In this document: piece after piece, positions 1,736-64,000 of the stretch
Numbering within the stretch: the stretch's first letter is position 1
How the letters are laid out: every line of letters starts with the position of its first letter
Origin: Anaeramoeba flamelloides
Lineage: Eukaryota; Metamonada; Anaeramoebidae
Reading direction: 5' to 3'
DNA: 64,000 bases
Assembly (NCBI GenBank): GCA_027625915.1
Contig: JANTQA010000033.1
Coordinates: 1,054,001-1,118,000, forward strand
Notes under the pieces: generated by a model
Databases searched by the model: none
The model's input: only the letters and a program-made list of their open reading frames with translations
What the model was told of the DNA's origin: nothing
Translations under genes and position numbers: made by a program

Positions 1736-1831
1736 CTAAAACTTTGAAGATTCAGATGTAGTGTCTTCATGATCACCAGAAGAGCTTTTATTATCAGATT
1801 TTTCAGAATTTGATTCTGATTTAAGATTTTC

Positions 1832-1862
<31 letters not shown>

Positions 1863-4800
1863 ACATCAACATCGTCTTCGTCGTCGTCGTCATCATCATC
1901 ATCACGACTATCTTCTTCTTCATCATCATCTTTATCATCTTTTTCATCATCATCTTTATTAGAAGAATCGGAATCTGATGATGAAAAAGAAGACGATTTA
2001 AATCCCTTTTTATTTAAAACTCGTTTAGTAACTGATTTTTTTTTTGATTGGTTAATTCTTTTTGTGATAAAATATTGGAAAAATGCACATTCAAATTCAT
2101 TTTCAAAAAAAATAAAAATCTTTTCAAGTGAAGGAGATTGCAAAAATAGTATTCTATTATCTTCTTCTGTGGAATTAATTTTTAATTTTTGACTTATTGG
2201 GGTTTGTATGATATTGGAGTTTTTTCGATGAGGTTCGACGATTATCAAATTATCCTTTTGGATGGAAACTAAACCCTTTCCATCACAATCTTTATTTTCA
2301 CTAATTATTTCGATGTCCCAATAATAATATTTATCGTTCATTCCATTATTCTTAATCATGGCATCTTTGTTTAAATTATCGTCTTTATTTTTTCCTCTTT
2401 TTTTTTTCTTTTTCATTTTTTCATCTTCATTATCACTATCGTCAGTGTTCAATTGTGCAGTATTTTCTTTTAAAAATTTTCTTTTAGAAAGTATTTGCCA
2501 AAGATACTTTTTTAATAGTCCAGTAAATGCAATTTTTGATTTTTGAGATCTAAAATTGAAAATGTATTCTTTTCTTTGTAACTGTAAAAGTAAAACGTTT
2601 CTATGCCTTTTCAAAAATTGTACCTTGACGAAAGGCATCTTCTTGTTATTAAAGTCAATTAAAAATCTTTCGTTAAAAAGTTCAACGGTTAAATGATCTG
2701 GTTCGATAATTAAATGGATATTTGTTTGAATTACCTCGTAATTCGAATTCAATAATTCGACAGAAAATACGCCTACTTTGGATTGCTTATTTGGCATTGC
2801 TTTATCTATAATTGATTCAACAAGATTTTGTTTAAAATAATTGATATTTGATTTAAAATAGGAAAACGCTTTTGTAAATTCCTCTCTTTTTCCATCATTT
2901 TCAAAATAACAAAATATTTTTTGCTTTTTGTTATTTTTTTTTGTTCGTGTGATTTTGGAAAGATTACCTACCATTTTGGAATTTGAAATTTTTGTTTGGC
3001 TTATCGACAATATTTTGTCTTGAATCAATTGTTCAAAGGAAAAAATAATTTTTTCTTGATTCAAATTAAGTTTTCCATCAATTGTATTTTTATTATGTTC
3101 AAATTTAAAAGTAATATTAAAGGTTAAATATTCTTTTCTTGGTTGCTTTTTGACACCATCGCCGATGCTGGTGCTTTTTACTTTATTTTCAATGGATTTA
3201 ATAAACACTTGGCATTGCTTTGAAGTTTGAAATTCAAAATTTATTATATTTCCATTTAAAAATATTAATGATAATTTATGTGGTTCTGAAAGGTATTGAT
3301 AAGTTTTAAGGCTTTGTAAGTCAAAATAAAATTCATTCTCGATATCCTCAACAATTACATCATGTTTTGCGTTTTTTTTATTTTTGTCTTTTTGCTTTTC
3401 TTGTGATTGTTTTTTCTCGTTTTTTTTGTGTTTGTCTGTTTTTTGATTTTTTGGATTCTTTTTCTTATTACTTTTTCTTTTTCCTTTTCCCCTTCTTTTT
3501 CCTTTTCCTTTTCCTTTTCCACTTTCTTTTTCTTTTCTTTTTCTTTCCCTTTCAATTCTTTTTTTCTTTTCGTTTTGTTTCTTCTTATTATTCTCATTTT
3601 CTTTTATTTTTACGATTTTTTCAATATTTTTAATGTTATTTAAATTTTCTTGATCGTTCTTGTTATCATCATTTTTCATAAAATAGATTTGATTATTGGT
3701 AATATTAATATAACAATTACCGACATTTTTGTAATTCACCAATATATTTGCTTTAAATATCCTTTTTTTATTAAAAATTGAATTATCAGTAATTAAATTT
3801 CGAGTTTTACTTTCTAAACGAAATAATTTGATTAAATCAAAAAGATTTTCCATTTGGATCGTGATTTCTTTATTGAATCCAATTTTTAATATGAATTGGA
3901 AATGATCAAAATCCTTAATCAATAATTGAGGGATTGATGAATAATAGATTATTAATTTATTCCTTTTTGTATATAAAAATATTTTGTCTTTATGGAGACA
4001 TATTTTCGAAGATATTAATTTATTTTCACGGCTAATTATTTTACAATTAAAATTAAAAGTAGAATAGCCGTTGGCTTTCGTTTCCTTTTCTTCAAGTTCA
4101 TTGTTACTGTTGCCATTGCCGTTACTGTTGCTTTTATTGTTATAATTTTCCATATTTAAGTTAAAACTGACTTTTTGTTCATTGGAGATAAATCTAATTG
4201 TGAGATAACTTTTTTCATCAATAACAAATTGGCCAAGCAGTTTTTCATTAGGATGAGAAATAAATTTTGTAAAAAAATTATACCTTCTGGTGATGTTTAC
4301 CGACTCGTTTAGATCTGGTGAATCTAAATATATTTCATAATAGCTTGGATACAAATAAATTGTTGCTTTGCCAGAGATTTTTCCAAAGGAGTTAAAGAGG
4401 TCTACAATATATTTACATTCCTCCATTTTCTTTTCAATTTGAATTTCCTTTTTTAATGCATCAGAAATCGTGTAGTTTGATTTTAATAATTTTTTTAATG
4501 TTGGTATTTTTGTTTTATACCCATCGATATTATTGGAATCAAAATTAGTCCAAAAATACTTGTAAGGTAATATTTTATCAAAATCTAGATCTTGGCTTTT
4601 GTGTTTATTATTGTTATTATTTTGTTCTAAAAATGATAAAAATGTGGATGCGATTAAATTTCTTTTTTTGATAGTATCTGTCGAAAAAATTACCGAATAA
4701 TCTTTATTATAAATTAAAAATAAATAAGAATTTGGATGAAAGACAATATTATATTCTAAATTTAATGTTTGTTCAATAATACTTTCAACCTCTTCCTCCT

Positions 4801-6436
4801 CATCGTCGTCATTTTCCAATTTTAATTTTTTTTTCTCTTTTTTTGCTTTTCTGTGTTTGTCCCTTTTTTCTTGTTTTTTTGTCTTTCTTTTTGTTTCTGA
4901 TCGACTATTTTTTTCTTTTTTTTTAGAAATGATAATAGACCAAGACTTTTCATTAATTTGGATGGATCCAGGTAAAAACCGATAATCGGTTTCCTTACAG
5001 CAAATGTTTACTCCGAAAAATGCCTTTTTTTGTTCATAGATCAATCTTTTAACTTCCTTTTTAATTTTCTTATTTTCCTTTTCTTTGTCGGTATTAATTA
5101 GACGATATAAAGATTGGTATTTTGGCTTTTCTAATTTTTGAAGATGAAAGTTTTGCCACGTCAAATATTTTTGTTCGTTTAATATCATTCGCGAATTTTC
5201 AAAACCAAATTGAGAAACAAAGCATTTTTCATTTGGGTTTATTAAGAAAAATTGATTTTTTAATAATTGGTTTTTAGCAGCATTATTAGTTTTTTTGACT
5301 TTTTTGTTTATGTTATTTTTAGAAATTAAATTCGAATTTGATAAAAACCCTATTAAACATCCTCTAAAAATCCATGATTGCTCCTTACTAGATAATTGGC
5401 ATATTAATAAAATCTCTTGCTCTTCCTCTTGCCCATGTTCTTCTTCTTCTTCTTCTTCTTCTTTTATTATTTCAATTTCTTTTTCTCGATCAATGCCATT
5501 GAAATTTTTCTTCACAGTCTTTGTGTTGATTTTTAAACTTAAAACTAATAAGTTACGAAGATTTTTTTTTTGAAACCCATAACTTGATAATTTCTTGTTA
5601 TCAATTTGTGAGAAAGGTAAAATCTTAATTTTTTCCTTGTCCCAATGCAGAACAAACGACGTACGCTCGCGGTTTGAAATTCTGATGGTTAAGTAATTTG
5701 AGCTGAATGTGATTACAGAGGGCGTCTTTTGTATGAGCACCTTGCTGTCGTTTGCTGTGCTTAGAATGCTCACCTTGCTTGAAAATTCCGCATTGCCCGT
5801 GCCAACTGCTCGCCCGCAAATGGACTCGATCTCGCCACTTGGTGGGTTAAGAATGTGGCCATGGAACGGAGCGCGTTCGGGTGATTTGCCACAATACCAT
5901 TGGTACATGCATAACGTCTTTTCCAAAATGATTGCGTTTTGCAAATCGCCTGCCGTGAGCTTGAACAGCTTGAAATTGGGTTTCTCTTTGTTTAAAATGG
6001 GCTTGTCATATTGGATCTCCTTGATCCTTGTTTTCTCCTTGGAGTGATCAAAGATTTTGATCGTAACAACGTTTGTTTCTTTGGACTCGCGGTAGATTTG
6101 CAATTCAGGCTCGGGAGACCAATTGAATTTCTGGGTGTTCGAATCAGAGATTTGAACGTCTTCAAGGATCGTAAAATAACTGGGCTTTAAATTGATGACG
6201 CCCCTTGAGGAAAATAAATTGGATGTGTTAGACCGGATTTCAACTGAAAACGTTGCAAACCCAGAAGCATAGTAATTAACCACCCTCGAGATCGTGGGAT
6301 CAATCTCGGTCTTTTTCCTGACAATTTCTGTTTCTGGATCCTCTTGTGGGATCGATAATTTCGGAACACTCCAGTTTTCGTTTGCAAAATCTGTTTTTTT
6401 AACATAGAAGCTTTTGAGATCAAGTGTAGTTGTCAT
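1736..6436 (-). CDS. Large protein of repeated PH-like modules with Lys- and Asp-rich linkers
   Basis: A single 1566-codon frame runs from ATG at 6436 to TAG at 1736-1738. I do not recognise a named family. At least eight segments of 80-130 residues repeat one pattern: short beta strands with a 'G.i.l....i.i' core, then an amphipathic helix. They lie near residues 60-150, 217-305, 474-605, 688-765, 795-875, 893-1085, 1105-1205, 1222-1320 and 1371-1460. The closing helices (for example ECAFFQYFITKRI) resemble the C-terminal helix of pleckstrin-homology folds. The module at 893-1085 is split by a Lys/Glu/Gly-rich insert at about 935-1025. The tail from about 1480 is Ser/Asp-rich and almost purely acidic. 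There is no signal peptide or membrane segment. The first ~260 codons are much more G+C-rich than the rest. Multi-PH lipid or protein scaffolding is an inference from fold pattern only. Confidence 0.85.
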
Positions 6437-18910: not shown

Positions 18911-21900
18911 TCAAATTATTGTTTGGTTGTGAATGGTATTTTCGTTTTCTTTTTTCATCAACATCATTATCTTCGTTTTTCTTCTTCTCTTCTCATCCCC
19001 ATTCTCTCGATCCTTTTCATCAGATACATCATATCCATCACCCTTTTCTATATATTTAACATCTTCATATGAACCGCTTCTATCTTGAGAAAAACATTCG
19101 GCTTTCTTTTCCTTCTTATTTGATAAATTATCATTTTTCCTCAGTAAAGATTGTGTTTTTTGAGGGTTTTGGGAATTGAAACAATTATTATTGGTGTTGT
19201 TGATTAAAAAATCATAAATCTTTGAATGACTAAATAAAAATGTTTTATGATATTTTTTTGACATTCTTGTAATTGCTGATGAATCTTTTAAGGAGAATTT
19301 GGGTATTTTTTCACTTTTATCTAATTTATATTTAAGATCATGAATAATTTGATCTGATCGTGATAAAAATTTTGTTTTTTCAAATTCTTTTCTATTTGTT
19401 TTCGAATCCTCTTCGCTATCATCATCCGAATCTTCCACACTACCACCATCAGAATCTTCCACACAATTCTCATCATCATCATCATCCACATCATCATCAT
19501 AACTATCATCACTCTCAATATTTTTCCTTTTTCTTTCCCTTTCCCTTTCCTTTTCCTTTTCCTTTTCCTTTTTCTTTTTCTTTTTCCTTTTCTTTCCCCT
19601 TTTCCTTTTCTTTTTCCTTTTCTTTTTCCTTTTCTCCTTCTCTTTTTCTTTTTTTGTGATTTTTTTTTTTATTAAATCAGAATCTACATCATACCATTGG
19701 ATTTCATCCGAAAGCTGTTTCCATCTACTTGACATATATTTATTTTCACCCTTTTGAAGATCATTATCTGTGTTAGTATGAAAACTATTATTTAAAATGT
19801 CCTTTTTCAAGTTTTTTCCGCCTTTTTTTAGTTTTTTTTTTTTCGTTTCTTCTTTTTTTAATTTTTTTTTCAGGCACTTTGGGTTTATAGATTGCGGGAT
19901 CATTCTTTGATTATTTGGATAAAAAAAAAAGTTTTCAAAATTAATTAAACTTTGATCTATGGACTTTTTTTTTTTCAAATTCTTTTGGTAGGCCTTTTCT
20001 TCTTGCCCCTCTGTTGCCAAAATGACCACTTTGCCATTTCGCTTCCTCCCGGTTCTTCCAAATCTTTGTACACTTCTTTTTGGATCTACGTAGGAGTCAT
20101 AGCATATGATCAAATCAATTTCGCCAATGTCCAATCCCTCTTCGCCAATGCAAGTTGCAATCAGAGTATTGTAGTGGCCGTTTTTGAATTGCTTGATGAT
20201 CCGTTTTTGGTTTTTTTGTGAAACCCCTTTGCAGGTCAAAGTCGTTGCCTGGCCAATAAAGCTCATTGCATTCACGCCCTTGAGATCGCGCAATGAATTT
20301 TTGATATCGACGACACTATCCCGAAAGCTTGAAAAGATCATTACACGGGTGTCCCCGTTTTTATTCTTTTGGAAGTGCTTTTTTAAAATGTCTCTCAGCT
20401 TGGTGATTTTCGGATGTGAATATATGTCCTTTTTCAATTGCTTGGGCACTTCTTGAATGAGATCCTGATACACCTCTGATTTTAAAAACTCAAATTTGTA
20501 ATCCTTCAGATCGTCTGTGTGGATGTTGTAATTCCTCTTTAAAAAGGTGTGGAAGGGATAGATGCCATAGTCCTTCAAAATTTTGTAGCCGTAGAAGAGG
20601 CTCATTGATAACAAAAAGGTCTGTAGATATTGGTTGTAATCATTGTGATTCAGCAGTTGCCTTTTCCTGTTTTGCTGTGTTCTTTTTAAAGTGTTATAAT
20701 TTGCCAACAAAACGCCCCGTGTGATTTCGTTCACCTTGTTTGTGGCGATCAGGTGCCTTTGAAACAAATCAGTCAGCAGTTTGGAGAGGTATGGCTTGTA
20801 CACGTTTATGACGTGGTTCAATTCCTTTTCGTTTTGAAGCGTCACCTTAATGACCTTGACTGTTTTTTTATACATCCATTCCTTCAGCTCATGCGAACTA
20901 AAGTTGTCCTCTGTCCTGACCTCCAGCTTGGAGATCAGACAATTTGTGATCACCTCTTGGATTTGCCCCTCAGAGGTCCCGGGCGTGGCGGTTAGCCCAA
21001 CAACACGGAACTGGTTTGTGTCCAAAAGCAATTTCGAGACAATGCGGGTGTAGTCGTAGTGGCCCATCGCGTGGTGCGCCTCGTCAAAGACCACACACAC
21101 AATCTCCCCTGCAAAGCAGATCTGTCTTTCCAAATCATTCACAACTGTTTGCGGGGTTGCGAAAAAGACCCGTTTGCTTTTCCACAGGCGCTCTCGCTGC
21201 TTGGAGTCTGTCTCACCAGTCATTTCGCAGCAATCCGCTTTTGAGACCACACACACAATGTCTAAAAAGGCCTGGAGCTGCTGTTGGACGAGGGGCTTTG
21301 TAGGTGCCAAAAAGATGATTTTGCCCGAAGGGAACCAACGGTAATAGTTGTACATGACAACAGTCGCAATTAAGGTCTTCCCCAGGCCGGTTGGTAAAAC
21401 AATTAGGGTGTTGTGGAAGAGCGCAGTCTTGGTGATCTCAAACTGGTAATTCCTGATCGGATAGTTTGTTGGGTACACCCAATCCCTTGACTCTTGTAAA
21501 TCGATCTGTGGCAATTTGGATAAGTCATATTTGCGATGGTAAATTTTGTTATATTTTAATCGGCTTTTGTGAGCATTTTTTTTTCTTTGATTTTTCCTTT
21601 TGTTTTGTGTCCCGCACAGCTTTGGGCTGATCGCAAGAATGTTCCTTTTTGGCCTTAAATCCATCTTTTGAAAGTTTTTGAGATAATTCTGCATAATCTC
21701 ATAGTTCGAGGTGGTCTTTTTTGTAAAAGAAAAGACAGCAAATTTCTCTTTTTGATTTTTTTGAAAAGAATTTTTAACGTTTAATTGATTATTTTCATGG
21801 TCAAGTTTATAATTGTTGAATTCTTCGAGGTTTGTTTCTATTTCAATCACAATTTGTTCTTGTTTTTCTTTTTCTTTTCTTTTTTCTTCTTCCTTCTCCT

Positions 21901-22348
21901 TTTTCTTTTCTGTTGATTTGATCCTCTTATTATTTTTTGGAAACATTTCCACTTCTTGTTGATCTTCGTCATCTGTGTCAATACTGATGACACTTGAAAT
22001 GGTTTTTTTGATTTTCTTTTTCAAGACAGGAGAATTTGTAATATCAATAATGAGTCTTTGATTTTTGTTGAACAAGTTTGTTTTTTTTTGATTTGAAAAA
22101 GTTTGATCAACATCAATTGGCGAATTTAAAATGATTATTTGTTTGTTTTTCTTGTTTGGGGTAAAAGTTCGTGGTTTTTTATTCCAAATATCGTTGTTTA
22201 TTTTTAATTTATTCTTGGTTTGGGGAAGGCTCTTTTTATTAAGTGACCGTTGGTTTTTTTTTTTATTTTGTGAGTTTTGACAATTGTGGTAATAATAAAA
22301 CGTTTCGTGATTTTTTTGTGATTTTTTTTTATCGTAGCCATTATTCAT
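18911..22348 (-). CDS. FANCM: FANCM/Mph1/Hef-family DNA helicase
   Basis: An intronless frame of 1145 residues runs from ATG at 22348 to TGA at 18911. It is a superfamily 2 helicase or translocase of the FANCM branch, which remodels stalled replication forks and D-loops in the nucleus. Residues 1-290 are poorly conserved and Lys/Asn-rich. The DEAH core follows: YPIRNYQ (about 296), Walker A LPTGLGKT (318-325), LAPTKPLVQQQ, DEAH (422-425) and GLTATPG (451-457). The thumb-like insert spans about 480-650. The second RecA fold carries FSSFRDSV, FIGQATT, ATCIGEEGLDIGEIDLIICY and QRFGRTGRKR (761-770). A post-helicase NQRMIPQSINPKC motif, typical of FANCM/Mph1, starts the presumed MHF-binding region. 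From about 840 on, the sequence is Lys/Asp/Glu low complexity. I see no ERCC4-type nuclease domain. The core is markedly G+C-richer than the tails. The family identification is firm. Confidence 0.95.
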   Translation of the reverse strand: MNNGYDKKKSQKNHETFYYYHNCQNSQNKKKNQRSLNKKSLPQTKNKLKINNDIWNKKPRTFTPNKKNKQIIILNSPIDVDQTFSNQKKTNLFNKNQRLIIDITNSPVLKKKIKKTISSVISIDTDDEDQQEVEMFPKNNKRIKSTEKKKEKEEEKRKEKEKQEQIVIEIETNLEEFNNYKLDHENNQLNVKNSFQKNQKEKFAVFSFTKKTTSNYEIMQNYLKNFQKMDLRPKRNILAISPKLCGTQNKRKNQRKKNAHKSRLKYNKIYHRKYDLSKLPQIDLQESRDWVYPTNYPIRNYQFEITKTALFHNTLIVLPTGLGKTLIATVVMYNYYRWFPSGKIIFLAPTKPLVQQQLQAFLDIVCVVSKADCCEMTGETDSKQRERLWKSKRVFFATPQTVVNDLERQICFAGEIVCVVFDEAHHAMGHYDYTRIVSKLLLDTNQFRVVGLTATPGTSEGQIQEVITNCLISKLEVRTEDNFSSHELKEWMYKKTVKVIKVTLQNEKELNHVINVYKPYLSKLLTDLFQRHLIATNKVNEITRGVLLANYNTLKRTQQNRKRQLLNHNDYNQYLQTFLLSMSLFYGYKILKDYGIYPFHTFLKRNYNIHTDDLKDYKFEFLKSEVYQDLIQEVPKQLKKDIYSHPKITKLRDILKKHFQKNKNGDTRVMIFSSFRDSVVDIKNSLRDLKGVNAMSFIGQATTLTCKGVSQKNQKRIIKQFKNGHYNTLIATCIGEEGLDIGEIDLIICYDSYVDPKRSVQRFGRTGRKRNGKVVILATEGQEEKAYQKNLKKKKSIDQSLINFENFFFYPNNQRMIPQSINPKCLKKKLKKEETKKKKLKKGGKNLKKDILNNSFHTNTDNDLQKGENKYMSSRWKQLSDEIQWYDVDSDLIKKKITKKEKEKEKRKKKRKKKRKRGKKRKKKKKKEKEKEKERERERKRKNIESDDSYDDDVDDDDDENCVEDSDGGSVEDSDDDSEEDSKTNRKEFEKTKFLSRSDQIIHDLKYKLDKSEKIPKFSLKDSSAITRMSKKYHKTFLFSHSKIYDFLINNTNNNCFNSQNPQKTQSLLRKNDNLSNKKEKKAECFSQDRSGSYEDVKYIEKGDGYDVSDEKDRENGDEKRRRKTKIMMLMKKENENTIHNQTII

Positions 22349-38600: not shown

Positions 38601-41600
38601 GTGTAAAATTTTGAATTTTATTTTATTAACCATACTTGATAAGGGTTTAAATCTTGATAAATTAATTTAAATTCCGAATTGAAGCTAAGTCATGAAAAAT
38701 AATATACTAAAAAAAAAAGTTCATCAATTGTCTAAAATTGCATATTACCAATAAAAAAGATTAGTCAAAGAAAAAAAAAAAAAAAGATATCACCAATTTC
38801 AATTTATTTCTTTGAAACTCATGTAGAGCAAATAAACATAGAAAAATCACAAGACAAAATTTTTTCCGACTATCAATTTAAATATCAGAAATACAGATGC
38901 ATGAAAGTTTGTTGTTGAAACGTTTGAAAAAAGTATACCCAAAAAAGTTTTCAAAAGGTTCATTTATAACAAATATATGAACAAAATTCAATCGACATAT
39001 TTTTCGTAATCTCTTGAAAAAAATTTTTTCAAATGGATTTTTCTTTTTATTTTGTTCTATTTTGCTTTTAATCTTAAATTCCTACTTTTTGATAAATAAA
39101 AAATAATTTGACTAGTTTTATTTAAAAAAAAAGACAATAGGATCAAAATTCCTTTATAGATCGTGGGATTAGCAGTTTATAATTGTTATAAAGTGAAAAG
39201 AAATACTTAGGATAATTTGATTTTCATAATTAGCCAAGATTTTTTCAAAAATCTTTTCGGAGAGAATTGTATAAAAATAGATTTATTGAATTTTGACAAT
39301 CTATTTGTTACAAATCAACTTTTGAAACTTTTTTTGTAAGCACTTCTTTCAAATACAGCTGTTCCAAATCCACTATGAAAATTTATAAGAAAACCTATGA
39401 ATTAATTATCTATTAGAATTTTTTATTCTGAATGACAAACGGTTAAATTAGGTTATCACATGTTATTTCCAATTGTAAATTTTATAAATGTGGAACAAAA
39501 TTTATTTTATCCAATTTTTTCGTTTTTAGCATTGTCAAACAAATTCAAAACAAAAAATATACATTAATTTGTATCTTCAATATACAAAATTTAGAAAAAT
39601 CGGATGTTTAAATAATTTAATAAAAAAAACTTTTTTTTCTCAAATTAACAAAGACAAAACCTGTTTTTAATTGAGGAAAAAAAAACAAAGAAAGTCTTAA
39701 AGAAAAGAAATCACAGAAATCTTGAAAGAAATTTTTTCGATTATTTCTTTTAAGATGTAAGAGAAATTGGAATTTATATCGTATTTTATGACAGGAATTG
39801 AATTTTATATATAATAAAATACAATTTTCTAAATAGACCGTTAACTATTCTGCAGGGTTTATAAAATTTCATGGTGCGTTTGGAACCGCTGTACCATCTC
39901 ATCTCATTTCATCTAATCCTATTTCGTCTAATCCTATTTCATCTCATTTCACTCCATATCATATAATATTAAATAGGGATGATTTATCCAACTTTATTCT
40001 ATTTTGGAATTAAAATGGGATTGATTACCCGTTTTCAATTTAGTTTAGTATTAGGGATCATGAGCTTCGTTGCTATTGGTGTTGAAGTTACAAGATTCCG
40101 ATGGCCAAAATTCCAACAGTTTGTACTCTTAATAATAGGTAAAATCATGAGAAAAAGAGAATACAAACACACATCGGGAATGACATGGTTTACAAGTGGT
40201 ATTTTTATATCAGGTGTATTTTTCCACCCATTAATAGCAATGACTTCAATGTGGTGTCTGATTTTTGGCGATTTAATGGCGGCAATTATCGGAAAAACAT
40301 TTGGAACAACGAAAATATTTCATCAAAAAAGTTTACAAGGATCAATGGGCTGCTTTTTTGCATGTTTTAGCATCACATTATTTGGATTTCGTTTTTTTGG
40401 TAGATTGTCAATCGCCGATTCTCTGATCTTAGGTAAATTACATTTACATTTTTTCCTTCTTTTGAATTTTCTTTCAGAATTTATTTTCAGTAAAAACACC
40501 AGATTGTTGAAATTAGAACAAGTTCACTTATTTGGGAGAAAATAACTTCATTTCAAACCATTTTATTAAATGAAATTATTACAATAAAAGATAAAAGATA
40601 AAAGATAAAAGAAAAGAAAAATTTTCCAAAGGGATCAATGTTAACCAAGAGAAGATCATAATTACAATTTTCAAAATAACCAGTGAAATAACTAATATCG
40701 ATAAAGTAAAATGTTACACCTTTCCAACCTTACATTGAAATGTTATCAGATCATAGAGATTAACTGTATATTTATAAAATTGTCTTTTATAAAATAGAAA
40801 ATTCAATTTCGGTCATATCATACAATACAAATCTCAATTATTGTTACATCATATACAACAATTTTTTTTTTCAAAAATAAAAAAAAGACAAAAATTGAAT
40901 TTTTTGAGGAAAGAAATCAAAGAAATAACAGAAATCACAGAAACTTGAAAGTATTATTTAATTACTACTTTTAAATTGTAAAAACCCGAGATTTTAACAA
41001 TTTTAGAAATTGAAGATATACATTAATGTATATTTTTTGTTTTGAATTTTTATGACAATGCCATAAAAGTAAAAAATGGATAAGATAAATTTTGTTCCAC
41101 ATTTATAAAATTTACGATTGGAAATAATCTTTGATAACCCAATTTTAAGGCTGGCAATACAAAATAAAATTTTATAATAGAAAATCAATAAATAGGTTCT
41201 TATAAATTTTCATAGTAGAGTTGAAACGGCTAAACATTTTTCAAAAAACTGTTATTTTTATTTCAATTTAATGCGTTGAAAAGTTTATGAGAACAATTAA
41301 TTATGTTTATATAAAGTTCTTCTTAGATAAAAAAAATTATTTTGATTGAATTTTGAGAATATAATTATTTGAAAAAAATGAAAATATCTCAAAACTTCAT
41401 ATTTTTTTTTATTTTTAATTTTAAAAATTTCCCATTTTTATGTATTTCTAATTTATTTTTTTTCATTTAGTTTATTGATCAACTGTTTCTAAAAAAATTT
41501 TTCTCATTTTTTTTTTTGTTTTTTTACAACAAATAATAAAAACCCAGAAACACAAAGTCGTAATTTAAATCTGAAACCAACCCCCTGATAAAATATTTTC

Positions 41601-61900: not shown

Positions 61901-64000
61901 ATGAGCCAAAGCAAAGATAATAAGTCTCAAACAAAAAGGAAAAGTTTTTTATTAAAAAGGCTATCCAACCAAAAAGACAGCTCAAATTCTAGTGACTCAA
62001 ATAAGTCAAGTGACTCAAACGAGTCAAACAAATCAAGTGGATCAAGTGAACCAAGCAATTCCAAAAAAAAGCCCTATAGACTCCGACAGAGGAATGATCG
62101 GCTCAATTATAGTTTAACCAAATTTGGATCCATGGGGAACTATGTTCAGAATCGTGACAAAAGGGTGTTGAAGAAATACCAAGAAACAGATTCTGAGGAG
62201 GAGGATGCCCAAAATAGCCAAGACAACGAATCCAAGGAAGAAGAAGAGGATGATGAGTATCAAGAAATACTTTCTGATCTGACCACGGAACAGAAGAGTG
62301 ACTCAGATGACTCATGGATGCCAACAAAAGAACGGAAGAGGGTGGAAAAGGAAAAACGAAGAAAGGAAAGGGAATTAAAAAGGAAGGAACGGATGGAAAA
62401 CCAAAATAAGAAAAAGCGTTCCCGAAACAAGTTCCACCAATTCCGAAGGCGGCATTTTATCAGCGATAGTGGCATTGAGAGAATCAACCCGAGGGTTTCA
62501 AGAATAAGTTCTTTAATTCCTGATAACAATTCCGAGGAGGACGAGGACTTCACATTACCTGACGAGGACAACTCAAGTGAGTTTGAAATTCTCGAAGACA
62601 AGTTGTCAATTGAGCAAAATTCTGAAGAAGAAATGCGGAACGTTCAAGAGGAATTACAAAACCTTTCACCAATAAAAAATCAAGGCGAAGAAGAAAAAAA
62701 AGAATACAATTTGCGCTCAAAGAATCCCATACATTACGAAACCGAGGAATCGGAAGAATCCGAAAATATGGACAATTTCTATTATGCAGACGAACTAAAT
62801 AACGAGAACACAAACGAAATTAACAATGGAAATCAGAATAGGAATAAAAAGAAGAATAAGAATAAAAACCATTTCTCTTCCTTAAAGTATACAAGATATT
62901 TGTTTAATCATTTTAATAAGTTTGAATTAAATTTACAAAAACAAATCGAAGAATTAAAAAATATTGAAACAAGATCTTTAACTTTATCACCAAGAAAGCA
63001 AGTCAACTCAAATAAAAATAAAAACTATTTTCATCAGAACCTCTCAGATCTACCAAGCTCGCCAGGTGGCATTTCACATACAAAGGAATATTTGTCGTTA
63101 CTGAAAAAAAATTCAATTGGTGGCAAAATTCATGATCAGATTCCAAGCTCTGAAGAAGAGAATAATTTACTTTGTGAACCAATTAACATTAACAACAACA
63201 GCAATAACAATAACAATAGCAACAGTAACAGTACTGGCAATAATAATGAAAAAAAAAAATCTAGTACTTTGCGAGAATCCAACAAAAATAATGTGATGGG
63301 GCCCATTACAATTGATCAAGCAATTTCCTTTAATTCAGTGGGTGGCCTAAAAGAACATTTAAGAGCATTAAAGGAGGTAGTAATGCTACCTTTGTTGTAT
63401 CCTGAAGTGTTTACTAAATTTGGAATTAAGCCTCCCAGGGGGTTATTGTTTACTGGGCCACCGGGCACTGGTAAAACCTTAGTTGCAAGAGCTTTAGCTA
63501 ATTCGTGCCAGAGTATTCATGGTAAAAAAATTTCCTTTTTCATGAGAAAGGGTTCTGATTGTTTGTCGAAATGGATTGGTGAAGCTGAAAGGCAATTAAG
63601 GCTCTTGTTTCAAAATGCTAAAAAATATGAGCCTTCAATTATCTTTTTTGATGAAATAGATGGATTAGCCCCAGTCCGATCCTCGAAACAAGATCAAATC
63701 CATAGCTCGATAGTTAGTACCTTATTATGTTTACATAAGGATACACCAATATATTTGGAGAATAATAGAATAATTAAAATTGAGAAATTATGGAAATCAA
63801 CAAAAATTAAAAAGAAATTAATTATGAATCCACAAGGTGAAATTACTCAAATTAAAAAATTAAAGAACAAAACGAAGATTTATGGTTTAAATAAAGAGAA
63901 TAAAATCAACAAATCACAAATCAAATATATTTCAAAAACGAAAATACGGGATCCAATTAAAATTGTTTTTAAAAATAAATCTCAAATAATTGGCTCAAAA
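61901..64000 (+). CDS. ATAD2/Yta7-like AAA+ ATPase with in-frame intein, cut by window edge
   Basis: One open frame of 700 codons from ATG at 61901 runs off the right edge. The family comprises nuclear AAA+ chromatin ATPases that act on histones or nucleosomes. Residues 1-470 are acidic, Ser/Asn-rich and basic by turns, as in ATAD2/Yta7 N-termini. The first AAA domain starts at VGGLKEHLRALKEVVMLPLL (480 on). Walker A GPPGTGKT is at 519-526, the ATAD2-type FMRKGSDCLSKWIGEAERQL segment follows, then Walker B FFDEIDG (584-585 acidic pair) and APVRSSKQDQIHSSIVSTLL. This is a near-verbatim family match. At residue 610 the frame leaves the family and becomes intein-like, where LMDG should follow. 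The second AAA domain and any bromodomain lie beyond the window. No introns are visible. Confidence 0.92.
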   Translation, partial: MSQSKDNKSQTKRKSFLLKRLSNQKDSSNSSDSNKSSDSNESNKSSGSSEPSNSKKKPYRLRQRNDRLNYSLTKFGSMGNYVQNRDKRVLKKYQETDSEEEDAQNSQDNESKEEEEDDEYQEILSDLTTEQKSDSDDSWMPTKERKRVEKEKRRKERELKRKERMENQNKKKRSRNKFHQFRRRHFISDSGIERINPRVSRISSLIPDNNSEEDEDFTLPDEDNSSEFEILEDKLSIEQNSEEEMRNVQEELQNLSPIKNQGEEEKKEYNLRSKNPIHYETEESEESENMDNFYYADELNNENTNEINNGNQNRNKKKNKNKNHFSSLKYTRYLFNHFNKFELNLQKQIEELKNIETRSLTLSPRKQVNSNKNKNYFHQNLSDLPSSPGGISHTKEYLSLLKKNSIGGKIHDQIPSSEEENNLLCEPININNNSNNNNNSNSNSTGNNNEKKKSSTLRESNKNNVMGPITIDQAISFNSVGGLKEHLRALKEVVMLPLLYPEVFTKFGIKPPRGLLFTGPPGTGKTLVARALANSCQSIHGKKISFFMRKGSDCLSKWIGEAERQLRLLFQNAKKYEPSIIFFDEIDGLAPVRSSKQDQIHSSIVSTLLCLHKDTPIYLENNRIIKIEKLWKSTKIKKKLIMNPQGEITQIKKLKNKTKIYGLNKENKINKSQIKYISKTKIRDPIKIVFKNKSQIIGSK
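63728..64000 (+). other. N-terminal part of an intein in the ATAD2-like ATPase
   Basis: Ninety-one in-frame codons follow STLL, starting with Cys610. CLHKDTPIYLENNRIIKI matches intein block A: catalytic Cys1, then 'DT.I' and a second strand. Further on, TKIYGLNKENKI and a run of alternating short strands ending in IKIVFKNKSQIIGSK resemble the stretch that leads into block B (TxxH), which would start right at the window edge. No stop codon appears in this very A/T-rich DNA. Intron retention is unlikely because the junction lacks a good donor and because of the motif match. Block B, any homing endonuclease, blocks F/G and the +1 extein residue are outside the window, so activity cannot be judged. 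Confidence 0.8.

Follow-up and report, generated by a model that had tools for sequence, protein, structure and literature searches.

Inteins of eukaryotic nuclear genes and the ATAD2 locus of Anaeramoeba flamelloides

The intein hosts of eukaryotic nuclei compiled in Table 1 of PMC5784728 include Prp8, VMA1, RNA polymerases, ThrRS, GLT, CHS, and eIF5B. The inteins of this table lie in frame in nuclear genes for conserved proteins, as does the element described here; ATAD2 and AAA proteins are not among the most common hosts that the table gives for 2018. The element is a predicted intein in an ATAD2-type gene of Anaeramoeba flamelloides. This gene starts near the right end of a stretch of 64,000 nucleotides (bases 1054001 to 1118000 of a 10.7-Mb contig in a 254-Mb genome), which is referred to below as the window.

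Inteins of the genus have been described: a study by Gallot-Lavallee et al. (2023), the title of which begins "Massive intein content in Anaeramoeba...", is cited in PMC12722695. Two A. flamelloides strains show 94.8% ortholog identity, and Anaeramoeba genomes are AT-rich with gene-family expansions, as described in PMC11550330. A protein search with the intein revealed only the window's own protein and P0002 (2106 residues), which is named "intein-containing aaa domain-containing precursor [Anaeramoeba flamelloides]" at NCBI. Its sequence agrees letter for letter with a portion of the frame of another ATAD2 paralogue (contig C26), although the contig recorded for P0002 has 8,710,556 bases and C26 has 8,705,000. 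The window copy is a different paralogue, with an intein identity of 58%. The 2023 study reportedly counted between tens and about a hundred inteins in each strain. Since Anaeramoeba inteins are known and one ATAD2 paralogue is already so named, the finding is a member of a published phenomenon and not new in kind. The first-pass annotation of the window, which was not aware of an intein in the ATAD2 family, is corrected by the NCBI entry. A literature search on inteins in ATAD2 found no paper on the subject, which is not a claim of absence from print. The present case is distinguished by two points, the occupation of all seven paralogues found by an intein that has no functional endonuclease and the existence of relatives at the same position in CDC48 of DPANN archaea that likewise lack the block B histidine.

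According to PMC6333167, no other intein residue is as highly conserved as this histidine, and a very small subset of natural inteins lacks it. Because this subset exists, the block B histidine is not strictly defining for inteins. It is missing in the Tko CDC21-1 group, which carries a bulky leucine at position -1, and in an engineered intein bulky -1 residues can stand in for the histidine (PMC6333167).

A predicted intein in the first AAA domain of the host protein

As judged from its sequence, the insert is very probably a Cys1 (class 1-type) intein of an ATAD2-type protein, in which it separates Walker B from the LMDG-equivalent segment. The host frame starts with an ATG at position 61901 of the forward strand, is open to the end of the window and through the insert, and terminates with a stop codon at positions 6294 to 6296 of L009, the continuation past the right edge of the window (window position = L009 position + 61799). 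The precursor read from the window and its continuation comprises 2064 residues including the insert. The open frame at positions 61901 to 63727 encodes the N-extein, which makes up the first 609 residues of the ATAD2-type protein and ends in ...FDEIDGLAPVRSSKQDQIHSSIVSTLL. Direct reading located Walker A (GPPGTGKT, 63455 to 63478) and Walker B (IIFFDEID, 63638 to 63661) of AAA domain 1 within it. After ...HSSIVSTLL, the last codon of which ends at position 63727, the insert begins as CLHKDTPIYLENN... and continues for 91 codons up to base 64000. This N-terminal part (63728 to 64000), assigned by direct reading, TIGR01445, and homologues, contains Cys1, block A (CLHKDTPIY), and the start of the block B region (KSQIIGSK). 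The complete insert of 385 codons (1155 nt) extends over L009 positions 1929 to 3083, corresponding to 63728 to 64882 in window numbering. It ends with ...MYDLCTGNENFLAGSDQPIIVHN, in which IIVHN is followed by Ser+1, and the AAA domain resumes directly as SMMDGLEDRGNVVVIGATNR.

The host protein exceeds the Pfam cut-offs for AAA (PF00004; best stretch, residues 515 to 612), AAA lid (PF17862), and bromodomain (PF00439). A second, degenerate AAA domain was recognized by eye, with no separate domain call. In its signature, ...SSKQDQIHSSIVSTLL..., the protein agrees with ATAD2/TBP7 proteins, and QIHSSIVSTLL is common to named ATAD2/TBP7 proteins. With all features of the family found in its sequence, the host is classified as a member of the ATAD2/bromodomain AAA family.

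Analysis of the excised insert with TIGR01445 (intein_Nterm) revealed a score of 34.2 bits at a cut-off of 24.5, and all seven paralogous inserts introduced below match this model at an E value of ≤1 (best, 3.6e-9). The end residues of class 1-type inteins, i.e., Cys1 with block A, the block F aspartate (MYDLC...), a VHN or IHN end, and Ser+1, were found in all seven. The first-pass annotation had noted the in-frame insertion right after STLL with its 91 open codons and had interpreted it as an intein, predicting a terminal HN followed by Cys, Ser, or Thr and a resumed AAA segment downstream. The observation is confirmed by the frame from the ATG at position 61901, the two predictions hold beyond the window, the proposed check against an intein model was positive, and the interpretation is supported and right in substance. 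A class 3 intein was ruled out, as Cys1 and the block F aspartate are both present. An artifact of the window end or of the assembly was ruled out as well, as the contig continues for 9.6 Mb and seven loci agree.

Several observations weigh against the assignment as an intein. Pfam Intein_splicing gave nothing significant, with a best E value of 0.069 in one of the seven members and no family for the window copy. Solved inteins are matched weakly. By profile, the nearest solved sequences are archaeal V-ATPase (VMA) inteins (PDB 4o1s and 7qss), which differ in host and site; 4o1s was matched with an E value of 0.036 by the single sequence and of 7.8e-5 by the seven-member, Anaeramoeba-only profile, and the match to 7qss (7.7e-32) came from a profile in which five of the seven rows were CDC48 inteins. 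The insert is rich in asparagine with low-complexity stretches, and its G+C fraction is 0.16 to 0.20, versus 0.35 to 0.37 in the flanks. The block B histidine, considered further below, is missing.

Occupation of all seven ATAD2 paralogues and loss of the endonuclease

A search of the genome with the intein revealed seven loci on seven contigs. A search with the N-terminal AAA half, in which 150 of 203 candidates were scored, found the same seven at 268 to 295 bits, followed by a drop to 113 bits for the CDC48 genes. Each of the seven ATAD2 paralogues found has the intein at the identical site. No empty ATAD2 paralogue was found among the 150 of 203 candidates scored; the next matches are CDC48 genes with an uninterrupted VVSQLLTLMDGL. 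The gene identified as carrier by the first-pass annotation does contain the intein, and it is one of seven carriers rather than a single copy. In the same genome, five CDC48 genes (L001 to L008; contigs C13, C26, C29, and C48) have uninterrupted VVSQLLTLMDGL sites despite an available Thr+1.

The seven inteins comprise 371 to 428 residues with a pairwise identity of 56 to 89%. The insertion site, Cys1, the YD of block F, the HN end, and Ser+1 are invariant. The inteins of the C9 and C57 paralogues (L020 and L021) contain long Asn- and Asp-rich low-complexity runs between the splicing blocks, and the placement of these runs differs among paralogues.

Trees of the hosts (7 sequences, 827 columns) and of the inteins (7 sequences, 325 columns) have the same topology, for which reason the approximately unbiased (AU) test was trivially indifferent between them. 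This congruence indicates that the intein is older than the ATAD2 duplications. As read from these trees, a single ancestral ATAD2 gene most likely already carried the intein when the duplications began, and its descendants inherited it. Separate recent homing into each paralogue is disfavored by the identical topologies and by the synonymous divergence (dS) of the closest pairs, which is of the same order in the intein (0.10 to 0.47) and in the host (0.22 to 0.37).

The ratio of nonsynonymous to synonymous divergence (dN/dS) was determined for six pairs; the values are rough because of the extreme AT bias. The ratios were 0.00 to 0.12 in the two AAA parts, 0.04 to 0.24 in the C-terminal host region, 0.14 to 0.27 in the N-terminal Hint part, and 0.27 to 0.53 in the middle part, which corresponds to the endonuclease remnant. 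Two results of this analysis weigh against an inherited, splicing-competent intein. The short C-terminal Hint part gave 0.09 to 0.41, with 0.41 in the closest pair, and in deeper pairs the intein frequently has a dS below that of the AAA parts (C34/C57, 0.5 to 0.6 versus 1.3 to 2.1). Base composition may explain the lower dS values; an older exchange of inteins between paralogues would fit too.

The residues that follow STLL were surveyed in 116 ATAD2-type proteins, a sample skewed to fungi and insects, in which 5 were off pattern. The remaining 111 uninterrupted proteins have Ala-Leu (110 proteins) or Ser-Leu (1 protein) at +1/+2. All seven Anaeramoeba ATAD2 proteins have Ser-Met. These results indicate that the host supplies the nucleophile required by splicing, since serine is at +1 in each of the seven hosts. 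Several CDC48 hosts have Thr-Met at these positions.

Alignment of the seven inteins revealed that the first LAGLIDADG motif is reduced to LSLILK[SA].EFS, with loss of the acidic residue, and that the second is absent or decayed. An active homing endonuclease is excluded on motifs, since two LAGLIDADG motifs with their acidic residues were found in none of the seven. The first-pass annotation had allowed for a LAGLIDADG domain; a remnant of the endonuclease type is indeed present, and both motifs are lost. This decay points to an end of homing, and homing has most likely ceased in the Anaeramoeba ATAD2 inteins.

Relatives at the homologous site of CDC48 in DPANN archaea

A protein search with the AAA region was passed by 3927 proteins. 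Among the best 120 of these, 113 are uninterrupted at the site (112 by pattern and P0025 by eye), 4 carry an intein there (2 Anaeramoeba and 2 CDC48 proteins), and 3 are without the motif (P0009, P0011, and P0017). The two interrupted CDC48 proteins, P0010 and P0012 (TIGR01243), are broken at the homologous position, VSQLL/CLHP.T... (slash, junction). The BLASTP matches cross both junctions. With scores of 184 and 153 bits and of 161 and 152 bits, they span the N-extein and about 100 intein residues and, at the other end, the C-extein together with the final 37 residues of the intein in P0010 or 23 in P0012. P0005 (1685 residues) consists of two tandem-fused CDC48 units, recognized as two stretches by TIGR01243.

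A further search with the P0010 intein revealed 22 proteins, 13 of the CDC48 type (TIGR01243 was applied to P0010 and P0012 only) and 9 in which the intein interrupts a different host. Both junctions at the homologous site were read in 10 of the 13; P0127, P0129, and P0130 were unmatched by the patterns used. A scan of named genomes revealed eight loci, three from Aenigmatarchaeota, one from Pacearchaeota, and four from Woesearchaeota. Seven of them have both junctions at the site, and the eighth, which begins at a contig end, has the C-terminal junction. After the duplicates L024/P0121, L025/P0125, and L031/P0128 were accounted for, 14 distinct CDC48-site inteins were compared, 8 of which are tied to DPANN records (these three pairs, P0123, and L026 to L029). 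The Woesearchaeota CDC48 locus L029, with an open frame of 2553 residues, has four C-terminal junctions that are intein-like and precede SEK, TTMDG, TNR, and SEK, and P0124 has three; CDC48 genes with several inteins may represent a hot spot in DPANN archaea.

The consensus of the CDC48-site inteins, V..[QT][LIM]L/C...HN/T.MDG, places them in AAA domain 1 at a position homologous to the Anaeramoeba site. The start CLH occurs in 7 of 7 Anaeramoeba and 11 of 14 CDC48-site inteins (CLD in 3), and the end MYDL.T occurs in 7 of 7 and 13 of 14 (MYDLTT), respectively. Remnants of the same endonuclease region can be aligned in both sets. The CDC48-site inteins differ in the host, in the +1 residue (Thr versus Ser), and in block F, where they have Thr in place of the Cys of Anaeramoeba. 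Thirteen of the 14 comprise 551 to 563 residues, and P0131 is a mini-intein of 211 residues. A clear F(L/I)AGL.EGDG motif is present in 10 of 14, whereas it is decayed in all seven Anaeramoeba inteins.

A profile of the seven Anaeramoeba inteins was compared with 140 proteins and matched all 13 CDC48-type proteins (E values of 1.9e-18 to 4.5e-5); with the 9 intein proteins of other hosts, it gave no E value below 0.12. Profile-profile comparison gave a probability of 98.1% over 134 columns. The identity between the two sets is 23 to 28% over the aligned length. In a Hint tree of 198 columns with 7 Anaeramoeba, 14 CDC48-site, and 8 other-site inteins, the support (Shimodaira-Hasegawa-like approximate likelihood ratio test/ultrafast bootstrap) was 100/100 for the Anaeramoeba group, 92.4/86 for the CDC48-site group, and 91.1/92 for the joint group versus the others, which is moderate and involves few other-site inteins.

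These data hint at a transfer between archaea and Anaeramoeba and at past homing, although the tree gives no direction. The scenario that we somewhat prefer is that a lineage of inteins without the block B histidine passed from CDC48 of DPANN archaea to the homologous site of ATAD2 in an anaerobic eukaryote, bringing Ser-Met in place of Ala-Leu, and that the loss of the endonuclease and obligatory splicing in a seven-member family followed. A less probable but serious alternative is that the intein came via a virus or from another Anaeramoeba intein, not straight from an archaeon. Acquisition of some eukaryotic inteins from double-stranded DNA viruses has been proposed, as stated in PMC5784728, and the genus is rich in inteins by the title of Gallot-Lavallee et al. 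(2023). Two scans of viral contigs, made with short peptide patterns, did not reveal a relative of the Anaeramoeba or the CDC48-site inteins, which is limited evidence against the viral route. It is rather doubtful that the similarity to the CDC48-site inteins reflects convergence of unrelated inteins on a favored AAA site. Inteins favor conserved sites according to PMC5784728, and both the low identity and the moderate support of the joint group would be compatible with convergence; the shared CLH start and MYDL.T end, the alignable endonuclease region, the specificity of the profile for the CDC48-type set, and a block B of the S..TK.L type without histidine in 7 of 7 and 14 of 14 inteins argue against it.

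Block B without histidine and the predicted splicing reaction

Block B of the window copy starts at residue 84 of the intein and straddles the window end. The TxxH motif predicted in the first-pass annotation was not found, as Thr93 (positions 64004 to 64006 in window numbering) takes the place of the histidine. The CDC48-site relatives deviate in the same manner: block B resembles S..(N/I)T(K/R).L, without histidine, in all 7 Anaeramoeba and all 14 CDC48-site inteins. The first-pass annotation had made the intein reading depend on block B, the C-terminal HN, and the resumed AAA domain; of these, the HN and the AAA domain are present and the histidine is absent.

Leucine occupies position -1 in all 21 proteins. 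Compared by description, the Tko CDC21-1-type inteins share with those of Anaeramoeba the missing histidine and Leu(-1) and differ in host and site (PMC6333167). Leu(-1) throughout the set, together with the precedent described in that source, makes a compensated first step plausible. By this analogy, a histidine-independent, compensated first splicing step is plausible for the Anaeramoeba inteins. The 2064-residue precursor would be translated as a whole, and the Hint fold would carry out an N-S acyl shift at the Leu(-1)-Cys1 bond. With threonine in place of histidine in block B, this step would rely on compensation, as in the few known inteins of this kind. Transesterification to Ser+1, cyclization of the terminal asparagine, and a final acyl shift would follow. 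STLL would thereby be joined to SMMDG, with a predicted junction of ...IVSTLLSMMDGLEDR..., and AAA domain 1 would be restored.

The missing histidine, the decayed endonuclease, and the fact that the search revealed no functional copy without the insert could also mean that the insertion is dead and does not splice, so that the ATAD2 copies would be pseudogenes or yield cleaved halves. This is improbable. The AAA exteins are strongly constrained (dN/dS of 0.00 to 0.12 in six pairs, beside 0.14 to 0.27 in the N-terminal Hint part), all seven copies retain the catalytic end residues and Ser+1 unchanged, and the state without histidine is common to 14 of the 14 CDC48-site relatives examined.

The insert frame contains no stop codon, versus 35 and 71 in the two other forward frames, and the chance of an open frame of 385 codons at the composition of the insert is about 8e-20. 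No GT..AG pair that would fit the boundaries was found at 25 offsets (-12 to +12) in any of the seven copies; the insert is therefore not like a GT-AG intron, and such an intron is excluded by the open frames together with the boundaries. An RNA intron, retained or spliced and open by accident, is very unlikely: the insert is far richer in AT than its flanks (G+C fraction, 0.18 versus 0.36) and introns of A. ignava are 91.86% A+T (PMC11550330), but all seven copies are free of in-frame stops over 371 to 428 codons (P, 7e-22 to 5e-19), GT..AG is missing at every consistent offset, and the insert is homologous at the protein level to CDC48 inteins at the same site.

Other features of the window

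The reverse strand at positions 18911 to 22348 of the window encodes a DEAD/ResIII helicase of 1145 residues with a Helicase_C domain (Pfam), which may be FANCM/Mph1-like. Another reverse-strand open frame (1736 to 6436; 1566 residues) has no Pfam match at an E value of ≤0.001, and repeated units are apparent in it by eye only. On the forward strand, an open frame of 188 residues (39979 to 40545) resembles membrane proteins and has no Pfam match; a likeness to dolichol kinase or a related CTP-transferase is seen by eye only. An Rfam scan of the window gave no match.

Origin and persistence of the ATAD2 inteins

Taken together, the sequences make it highly probable that a class 1-type intein with a dead endonuclease resides in all seven ATAD2 genes found, that it is inherited, and that it is competent for splicing. 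The element would have entered one ancestral ATAD2 gene at the AAA position that corresponds by homology to the one occupied by inteins in CDC48 of DPANN archaea. Gene duplication would then have spread it, and with the decay of the endonuclease homing would most likely have come to an end. Since precise loss is hard, the intein would have been trapped, with splicing kept by selection on the host.

The 21 inteins without the block B histidine and with leucine at -1 (7 from Anaeramoeba and 14 from CDC48) represent a test set for the proposed compensation for this histidine. With an intein in each paralogue found of a conserved chromatin ATPase and no working endonuclease, the persistence of inteins without homing becomes open to study. 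The ATAD2 family of A. flamelloides thus provides a candidate case in which an intein would have moved between two domains of life, from one ATPase to a homologous one, before a set of gene duplications took place.

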